Shown in pieces: positions 21 through 1,839 of a DNA stretch of 32,104 bases. Under the pieces are notes generated by a model, which was not told the DNA's origin, searched no databases, and worked only from the letters and a program-made list of their open reading frames with translations. This DNA comes from Campylobacterota bacterium (GTDB taxonomy: Bacteria > Campylobacterota > Campylobacteria > Campylobacterales > Sulfurovaceae): assembly GCA_013607775.1 (NCBI GenBank), contig VCAW01000079.1, positions 1 to 32,104 of the forward strand, written 5' to 3'. Each line of letters opens with the position of its first letter. The first letter of the stretch is position 1. The position numbers were made by a program, and so were the translations under genes.

Positions 21-1403
21 TTAGTTAGGGTATTCGCTTGGTATGCGAATCTGCCCACTAAAAACTTTATTGTATGTCATGAACCTATCATCAAATAACC
101 ATAAATTATTTGTTTTATAATTTTGTTCTACATCTTGAGTATTTTTTTTCATGAAAAGATTATGTAACTTATCTTCTAATACACCATCATTAGTTAAAGA
201 TTTTAATTGATGAATTATTTTTTCTCTATCAAACATATATTCAGCCAATTCTGAATGAGTAACTTTAGTTAATTTTGTATAATATTCCTCATTCATATTT
301 TCACTATTCATTCTCAAAAAATCTTTATCTTTTTCTAGTTCTATTTTCGCATTTGATATTAGTGTTTCTGAATCTAAAATTTCTTCATTATCTCTTATAT
401 AATAACCTAGAAATGGTGCTTCTTTAATTGCTTTAGTGAGACTATTTTTAGCTATTTCATCTATATCTATACCACTCTCTTTCGCTATTATCTTGATTTG
501 ATTCCTAACTTCATTTTGAATATCTTCCCAAGCTAAACTATGCAGTAAATCATCATTATTTTTTCTTTTTGGATAAATTGTAAAGTCATCTCTTGTATCT
601 GGTAAAACATTATCATCTAAGTAATCTGAGTGGATCAAATATGCTATTTCAAGATTTTTAAATATTTTTAATTTTTTATCACTACTTAACTCAGAATTCT
701 TCTTAACTACTCGTCCACCTGCACAGTAATACCCCTCTTGTTGCTGTATCCCATCAAGAGCATAATAAATAATAAATTTGTGTGTTCACCTTGAATTCTT
801 TATCTAAAAATGTAGGGATATTATTACTTGATATTTTTTCTTTCTCTATAGAGTTTTCATAAATATCAATACTTATTTCGACACCTTCTTTCTGCTTTAA
901 CTGAAAGTATGCAATAAAATGTTCTTTAATCTCTTCTTTAAATCTTTCATAATCAACGACAAATTTATTTTTAGGTTTTGATAGCTTTAATATCGTGTTA
1001 TTAATTTTTGAACTATCTTCACATCTAATATCTTTATCTACTTTAAAATCGATAGTCTTATCAAGACTATTGATATGTACATTTTCAAAAACTTTTAAAT
1101 ATAAAAACGGCTAATGCCTTTACATCCAAGCTCTCTCTTGTGCTTAGTTTTATATTCCTTAAAAGCATTTAGATTATCCTCTGTAAAACCATCACCATTA
1201 TCTTCAATTTCAATGGCGATAATATATTTTTTAGTTTCTTTTATATCAAGTGCATCTTGAATAAAATTTATTTTAATATCGGTAGCATTTGCTTGAATAG
1301 AGTTAGTTATTGCTTCATAAACTGCTTGCTTCCAATTAACTGTTGAAGGCAAATCATCAACAATATTTTTTATACTTACTATTGCATTACCATGTTCACT
1401 CAT
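21..1403 (-). pseudogene. GHKL/HATPase_c ATP-binding protein (MORC/paraMORC-like), disrupted by two frameshifts
   Basis: N-terminal ORF (1095-1403) has ATPase motifs (YEAITNSIQANA, IEDNGDGF, GCKGISRF). Changing frame at the A5/T5 run (1103-1107) continues RFLYLKVFENVHINSLDK..., and changing frame again near the (GT)3 repeat (780-785) gives HKFIIYYALDGIQQQEGYYCAGGRVVKK... into ORF 21-638. Confidence 0.75.
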
Positions 1404-1491
1404 CTACACCCTTTTAAAACCAATTATTCATTAAGATAAATTATATCCAAGTTCTTCAAAATATAATAAAAACATGTCAATTTGAAAGATT

Positions 1492-1522
1492 TTTACGATT
1501 TTTTTACGGACTTTACTATAAT
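1492..1522 (+). promoter_or_regulatory. Putative sigma70 promoter, TATAAT at 1517-1522 with T-rich upstream region
   Basis: Exact TATAAT -10 box preceded by T-rich sequence (gatttttacgatttttttacggac), typical of Campylobacterota promoters; predicted start ~1528. Confidence 0.55.
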
Positions 1523-1526
1523 CGCA

Positions 1527-1634
1527 TGTACCCTTTTAGGTTATAGGGTAGTGTTCTGACTTTTAGATAAACTGGGTGGGCTTGAAAATTGATGTTTTAG
1601 GCATAGGCAGGGTAAATTTATCTGAAAGGGTACA
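1527..1634 (+). promoter_or_regulatory. Structured 5' leader with mutually exclusive stems sequestering the Shine-Dalgarno
   Basis: TGTACCCTTTTAG (1527-1539) pairs with CTGAAAGGGTACA (1622-1634), 13 bp with one G-U. TTTTAGATAAA (1561-1571) pairs with TTTATCTGAAA (1617-1627), 11 bp with one G-U. The two stems share 1622-1627. Confidence 0.5.
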
Positions 1635-1636
1635 TT

Positions 1637-1747
1637 ATGGAAACATTGTTTTCTGTACTGTTTTTAATACTTGGAAGTATGAGAGTTGCTATCATGTGGC
1701 TTGATTATGAAGAGTGTAAAAAGCACAAGGACACAGACAAAGACTAA
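1637..1747 (+). CDS. Small hydrophobic peptide (36 aa), single predicted TM segment with charged C-tail
   Basis: ORF METLFSVLFLILGSMRVAIMWLDYEECKKHKDTDKD*, preceded by GAAAGGG 6 nt before the ATG; own promoter and downstream hairpin. Below the ORF-track length cutoff. Confidence 0.5.
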   Translation: METLFSVLFLILGSMRVAIMWLDYEECKKHKDTDKD

Positions 1748-1760
1748 TTTGTCTCACAAG

Positions 1761-1791
1761 ATGACAGGAATTCGCCTTCCTATCATTTCTG
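1761..1791 (+). terminator. Hairpin with T-rich tail after the 36-aa ORF
   Basis: ATGACAGGAA (1761-1770) / TTCCTATCAT (1777-1786), 6-nt loop, one C-A mismatch, followed by TTTCT. Confidence 0.45.
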
Positions 1792-1839
1792 TGTACCCTT
1801 TCCAACATTTTACAAAAATAAACTTATAGCAAAATAAAT

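Follow-up and report, generated by a model that had tools for sequence, protein, structure and literature searches.

What does a short transcription unit near the start of a deep-sea bacterial contig encode, and what would keep it silent or set it off? The window analysed here, a stretch of 32,104 nucleotides, comes from the 2.26 Mb draft genome of a deep-sea bacterium, an uncultured relative of Sulfurovum. The original prediction, made without database searches, described an orphan, switch-like unit whose 5' end can hide the Shine-Dalgarno (SD) sequence of a 36-aa membrane peptide in a type I toxin-like layout, with a metabolite- or temperature-sensing leader as the alternative. On direct reading, all the elements it named lie where it placed them, including the third anti-SD copy just past the 3' hairpin (Table 1).

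The unit is flanked upstream by a GHKL-type ATPase gene on the minus strand, which looks broken, and downstream by gltX. The ATPase gene (window positions 21-1403) matches HATPase_c_3 and, weakly, HamB of PADLOC; its apparent frameshifts near 1095 and 780 point to a pseudogene or to assembly errors. The leader of the predicted mRNA, about 110 nt long, begins 4 nt past TATAAT with TGTACCCTTTTAG, the anti-SD of CTGAAAGGGTACA (1622-1634).

Table 1. Features of the unit, in window coordinates; transcripts, operator function and toxicity are inferred.
Feature	Position	Strand	Details
SOS-like operator AAACATGTCAATTTGAAAGATTT	1470-1492	.	lies on the -35 region; differs from AAATATGTCANNNTGACATATTT at 3 positions
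-10 box TATAAT, toxin mRNA	1517-1522	+	-10-like hexamer at the same position in nearly all units
Predicted mRNA 5' end and 5' anti-SD TGTACCCTTTTAG	1527-1539	+	leader start conserved
P1 5' strand AGGGTA	1545-1550	+	partner is the 3' anti-SD, 1794-1799, in the full-length fold; 92% of cells paired
P2 5' strand GTGTTCT	1551-1557	+	long-distance partner 1728-1734; 98.6% of cells paired, 2 pairs changed on both sides
S3 5' strand	1560-1571	+	stem taking in the 5' half of the SD
S3 3' strand	1617-1628	+	partner of 1560-1571
Shine-Dalgarno region GAAAGGGTACA	1624-1634	+	three possible partners: 5' anti-SD, S3, 3' anti-SD
36-aa membrane peptide METLFSVLFLILGSMRVAIMWLDYEECKKHKDTDKD, putative type I toxin	1637-1747	+	ATG at 1637, stop ends at 1747
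P2 3' strand AGGACAC	1728-1734	+	within the C-terminal codons of the ORF
Hairpin across the stop codon	1735-1754	+	3 pairs with compensatory changes
3' hairpin	1755-1793	+	outer helix 96% paired; compensatory changes in 6 of 10 pairs
3' anti-SD TGTACCCTTT	1792-1801	+	paired with the SD in 98.1% of cells; a single compensatory change, in L041
Predicted antisense RNA (antitoxin), ~80-85 nt	1719-1803	-	starts GGAAAGGGTACACAG, long closing stem, then CTTTTT; ends inferred
-10 box TAAAAT, antisense promoter	1807-1812	-	TANAAT/TANGAT at exactly 4 nt in 45/49 units

The peptide and its relatives

The unit is not an orphan, and that part of the original prediction failed. We identify about 50 related units in 26 of 175 Sulfurovaceae genomes, with up to 4-5 per genome, and the source genome itself holds a second, frameshifted copy. 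Of 150 family genomes searched for the peptide, 16 contain it; in the set of 175, the leader model (R1) has hits in 24 and the 3'-end model (R2) in 26. Profile and RNA-model searches of 397 genomes drawn from the class returned no relatives outside the genus of the source, and none were present among IMG/VR viral contigs and PLSDB plasmids. In named collections, the relatives come from metagenome bins carrying the label Sulfurovum, Nitratifractor or Sulfurovaceae, or more broadly Epsilonproteobacteria, Campylobacteraceae or Campylobacterota; most sources of the units are metagenome or draft bins.

Across the family the peptide is 36-37 aa long, with the consensus MExxFSVLALILGVxKVTIMWLxYKECKKxKNTDKD and one hydrophobic stretch (19-residue hydropathy up to 2.1). 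Conservation in relatives, whose absence the original prediction had said would refute it, was found: pN/pS is 0.35 among 22 equal-length ORFs, and most of the variation falls at third codon positions. We therefore consider it very probable that the peptide is translated and held under purifying selection; conservation and coding selection are computed, and translation itself is inferred from sequence alone. Comparison with Pfam, NCBIfam, PADLOC, PHROGs and PDB chains gave nothing convincing. The earlier view that the peptide belongs to no recognised family thus held for Pfam, NCBIfam, PHROGs and PDB. Rfam contained no match for the unit. A DUF5321 match to the peptide (E 0.023) was rejected as chance level.

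Broken copies are frequent and include truncations, frameshifts and, in three genomes, a 25-nt insertion after codon 5. Their frequency fits a costly toxin gene, with toxicity itself inferred. The insertion, GCCCGTAGGAAATGCCCTTGGGGTG, is identical in the three genomes whose toxin ORF it disrupts (L002:1675-1699, L032 and L149); a related variant sits in the leader of L159, and its core, AAATGCCCTTGGGG, is also present elsewhere and resembles a small dispersed repeat. Other loci (L025, L042, L044 and L045) keep the peptide and 3' end next to leaders that are unrelated or truncated, suggesting within-unit recombination. A recurring neighbour with the leader AAAAAAGGAGAAA and a start like MLRYLL or MLHYLL lies downstream of units in L002, L024, L141 and L144 and upstream of L148, and may represent another family of small membrane proteins that accompanies the units.

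Folding of the mRNA and access to the Shine-Dalgarno

The original prediction proposed two mutually exclusive leader stems, and this held. For the nascent leader (1527-1660) the MFE structure, at -34.0 kcal/mol, pairs the 5' anti-SD with the SD. In the MFE of longer transcripts S3 replaces this pairing and takes up GAAAG of the SD, so the two stems compete. S3 had been described as an 11-bp stem (1561-1571 with 1617-1627), which is partly right, since it extends to 12 bp; a further correction is that in the predicted full-length fold the SD is held by S3. The full transcript closes by P1 and P2, which flank the stop-codon hairpin and the 3' hairpin with zero unpaired bases between helices. In shorter transcripts the 5' strand of P1 is predicted to pair locally with 1529-1534.

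Natural variation supports the full-length fold. Across 21 full-length units, 86.7% of cells are paired, as against 38-57% in slid controls, and 78 cells are doubly changed, compared with 28 in shuffles (0/500 shuffles as high). Covariation is seen in every main helix of this fold, and for S3 and P2 within-unit pairing beats between-unit pairing in 20 and 19 of 21 cases, respectively. The original prediction had counted a lack of covariation as refuting it; covariation was found for the folded mRNA and was not found above shuffles for the 5' anti-SD/SD helix. Support for that helix, in which 88% of cells are paired, rests on conservation and energy only.

Burial of the SD is a computed property of every intact unit. 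The SD core has an unpaired probability of 0.03 in nascent and 0.05 in full-length transcripts of 35 intact units, compared with 0.42 and 0.47 in controls shuffled around a fixed SD, and it is predicted to be buried in 35/35 units in both forms. In the model, removing the 5' strands leaves a mean accessibility of 0.08, with the 3' anti-SD taking over, and removing the 3' tail alone leaves 0.07, with S3 or the 5' anti-SD staying in place. Losing both raises accessibility to 0.56, with 91% of units above 0.3. Since the SD is freed only by losing both the 5' strands and the 3' tail, we favor a double-lock model, in which mRNA processing is inferred. These fold results are energy calculations in which pseudoknots and proteins are not included.

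A predicted antisense promoter and an SOS-like operator

Conservation runs past the 3' anti-SD into a nearly invariant GTANAAT on the minus strand, 4 nt beyond. Farther upstream of this antisense -10 an A/T-rich sequence is also conserved, and the flank is otherwise diverged. The computed regularity is strict: TANAAT or TANGAT occurs at exactly this spacing in 45 of 49 units. The hexamer is likely the -10 box of an antisense RNA, itself inferred, that would start at GGAAAGGGTACACAG (~1803), the complement of the 3' anti-SD. The antisense strand folds stably into a long stem followed by CTTTTT at ~1719, a possible end, and the predicted RNA spans the last third of the ORF and the entire 3' end. 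The antisense promoter was recognised by its -10 box only, and a simple promoter/terminator scan found no canonical terminator for either RNA. From the fixed distance of the -10 box we therefore predict an ~80-nt antisense RNA and a type I toxin-antitoxin layout. An antisense RNA had figured among the checks of the original prediction, which missed the conserved promoter now predicted for it and overlooked the SOS-like operator. Its type I toxin-like layout is supported by anatomy and conservation, not by function; toxicity, start sites and translation remain inferred.

Apart from the second copy, the unit shares only one stretch with the rest of its genome: 25-60 bp located upstream of the promoter and found ahead of recA as well. 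Allowing up to 3 mismatches, the genome contains 22 sites that fit the pattern AAATATGTCANNNTGACATATTT and 0 that fit a reversed control pattern. Among the neighbouring genes are ruvA, recA, recG and radA, those for a RelE/ParE-family toxin, a YraN-family protein and the only detected S24 protein, and a dprA-like gene, whose 164.8 bits fall short of the TIGR00732 cut-off (191). The best sites retrieved from other genomes include four ahead of recA and two ahead of ruvA (six genomes). As a separate observation, SOS-like boxes (L006, L008, L011, L012, L014, L015, L016, L017, L175 and L178) precede endonuclease-like, DUF2130 and purT-like genes in addition to ruvA, recA, radA, recG, a dprA-like gene and a YraN-family gene, and the RelE/ParE-family gene behind such a box is a type II toxin gene.

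Of the 42 toxin units themselves, 21 have the box with 0-4 mismatches, and its centre invariably lies over the -35 region, 45-47 nt ahead of the leader; the other 21 have at least 6 mismatches to it, and the shuffled null is 0. The window unit's own box, with 3 mismatches, is among the weaker ones. Several box-less units (L020, L022, L024, L029, L036, L046, L142 and L164) have a different promoter motif in common, about TTCAAGNAAAAACAAGCTATAATC, so the toxin family seems to have two alternative controls.

The S24 protein has a Phage_CI_repr-type N-terminus and scores 41.8 bits to the TIGR00498 lexA model (cut-off 111). By this measure the putative repressor is not a LexA ortholog, the sole S24 protein found in the genome falling below that cut-off. 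Campylobacter and Helicobacter are described as lacking LexA or a typical SOS response (PMC2390758). In the 30 orthologs examined the Ala-Gly site and the catalytic Ser are always kept, and 28 of 30 genomes have the box in the promoter of the S24 gene. The protein occurs in 140 of 175 family genomes and, across the class, in 42 of 68 genera (159 of 397 genomes), and operator-like palindromes with lineage-specific letters precede many distant orthologs. The gene for this CI/LexA-like repressor lies at L018:1222-1875 (G000 C106), and further loci are L182-L211 and L235-L254. It is a candidate SOS master regulator across Campylobacterota, a role inferred from sequence alone.

The expectation that boxes occur only where S24 does gave a mixed result, which we do not count as proof: G016, G035, G037, G072 and G110 have boxes and no S24 protein was found in them, perhaps because the bins are incomplete, and some S24-bearing genomes hold just 1-3 boxes. 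The fixed position of the operator is computed. We consider it likely that an operator shared with recA and the S24 gene places the toxin unit in an SOS-type regulon, in the absence of binding or induction data.

Proposed mechanism, alternatives and known systems

We propose that the unit is likely a type I toxin of SOS type that responds to DNA damage, is doubly locked and is paired with a cis-antisense antitoxin; toxicity, both transcripts, repressor binding and damage induction are inferred. In this scheme, suggested by the operator, an S24-family CI/LexA-like repressor would sit on the SOS-like box and block the promoter until RecA-stimulated self-cleavage after DNA damage frees it. As the mRNA emerges, the 5' anti-SD and then S3 are predicted to bury the SD, and the finished mRNA, closed by the 5'-3' interaction of P1 and P2, would be inert, with the 3' anti-SD as a predicted backup lock. 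The SD would be freed only by loss of the 5' strands and the 3' tail, or by standby-type ribosome entry. In unstressed cells the ~80-nt antisense RNA would pair with the toxin mRNA and lead to its decay, probably by RNase III. Whenever induction exceeds the antisense RNA, the 36-aa single-span peptide, as its character suggests, would enter the inner membrane and halt growth. Several points count against this proposal: half of the units are without a box, the window unit's own box is weak, boxes and S24 proteins do not fully match, clear terminators are lacking, only a -10 box marks the antisense promoter, covariation of the 5' anti-SD/SD helix does not exceed shuffles, and removal of the 3' tail alone leaves the SD shut.

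An alternative that we regard as unlikely is that the unit encodes a small, non-toxic membrane protein induced by DNA damage, such as a modulator of division or of membrane enzymes, whose level the antisense RNA tunes. Conservation of the operator and the peptide would be equally expected in that case, and toxicity is only inferred; however, universal triple sequestration of the SD, a conserved antisense promoter, multiple copies and frequent broken copies are the usual signs of a toxin. It is also improbable that the toxin-antitoxin pair is real and its operator is bound by a regulator unrelated to DNA damage. The absence of repressor binding data, the box-less half of the units and the imperfect match between box and S24 presence leave room for such a regulator, whereas the occurrence of the box before recA, ruvA, recG, radA and the dprA-like gene, and in the promoter of the S24 gene in nearly all genomes examined, argues against it.

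The two remaining readings find very little support. That a small peptide is controlled by a riboswitch or thermometer, the metabolite- or temperature-sensing leader raised as the alternative by the original prediction, would agree with the two mutually exclusive leader folds, but there is no Rfam match, the alternative leader pairings engage the SD, the ORF and the 3' end and build no conserved ligand pocket, and the antisense promoter is conserved; we found no support for it. That the unit is a dispersed repeat, a miniature transposable element whose repeats mimic a switch, is suggested by several copies per genome with unrelated flanks. Yet the end copies of TGTACCCTTT are direct repeats and not terminal inverted repeats, conservation stops at promoter elements on both sides, and the ORF is under purifying selection within a covarying fold. 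This reading was rejected on anatomy.

The toxin-antitoxin reading has close parallels. TisB/IstR-1 and DinQ/AgrB of Escherichia coli combine, as is predicted for the present unit, a damage operator over the toxin promoter, a single-span peptide of ~30 aa and a structured, inactive primary mRNA (PMC7708055, PMC8309996, PMC3567139). Unlike them, the present unit shows no sequence similarity to TisB or DinQ in profile searches (Pfam/NCBIfam models), its predicted antitoxin is cis-encoded and convergent where theirs is a separately encoded trans RNA, its putative repressor is a CI-like S24 protein and not LexA, and it has an extra 3' anti-SD as backup lock. AapA/IsoA of Helicobacter pylori, from the same phylum, is also multicopy, with features that are predicted here as well: successive SD traps during transcription, a long-distance 5'-3' lock and a cis antisense RNA (PMC6733600). 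The peptide studied here nevertheless matches no PDB chain, Pfam or NCBIfam family (a profile search, with no direct AapA alignment); 3' truncation alone makes AapA3 mRNA translatable, whereas in our model the 5' strands must be lost too; SOS control is not described for AapA/IsoA in the literature searched; and the antisense RNA predicted here is limited to the 3' end and the final third of the ORF.

As in yonT/SR6 of Bacillus subtilis, the predicted antisense RNA overlaps the 3' end of the toxin mRNA (PMC5848175). The antisense RNA of bsrG/SR4 also overlaps the toxin mRNA 3' end. No peptide family is shared with either pair, the B. subtilis systems are prophage-borne, and to our knowledge neither has an SOS-type operator or a 5' anti-SD. 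By analogy, the design is likely that of TisB/DinQ joined to that of AapA/IsoA, and by peptide family it is neither. The putative regulon resembles the S24-repressor SOS networks of Bacteroidetes and Francisella, in which an S24 repressor of phage type stands in for LexA in controlling its own gene and DNA-damage genes (PMC8565304, PMC13148647); it differs in phylum, in operator (AAATATGTCANNNTGACATATTT) and in having a type I toxin among its targets.

We lean, with reservations, towards a bolder reading in which Sulfurovaceae, and perhaps many Campylobacterota, would have a true SOS response whose regulator is a captured S24 repressor of phage type, acting on its own gene and on recA, ruvA, recG and radA as well as on doubly locked type I toxins with 3'-overlapping antisense antitoxins, a circuit evolved independently of LexA and TisB. 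The unit would represent a type I toxin-antitoxin family not described so far, a prior T1TAdb listing not being excluded. Its comparative record is unusually complete, with ~50 natural variants, covariation throughout the main helices of the full-length fold and a predicted antisense promoter, and could make it a model of how ribosome access to an mRNA is prevented throughout the transcript's lifetime. A toxin would also be tied to a damage operator in a phylum whose members Campylobacter and Helicobacter are said to have neither LexA nor a typical SOS response, and the operator and repressor set suggests an SOS-like regulon in Campylobacterota. Now that the putative repressor and operator are named and the list of targets is short, whether other Campylobacterota have an SOS response can be tested directly.
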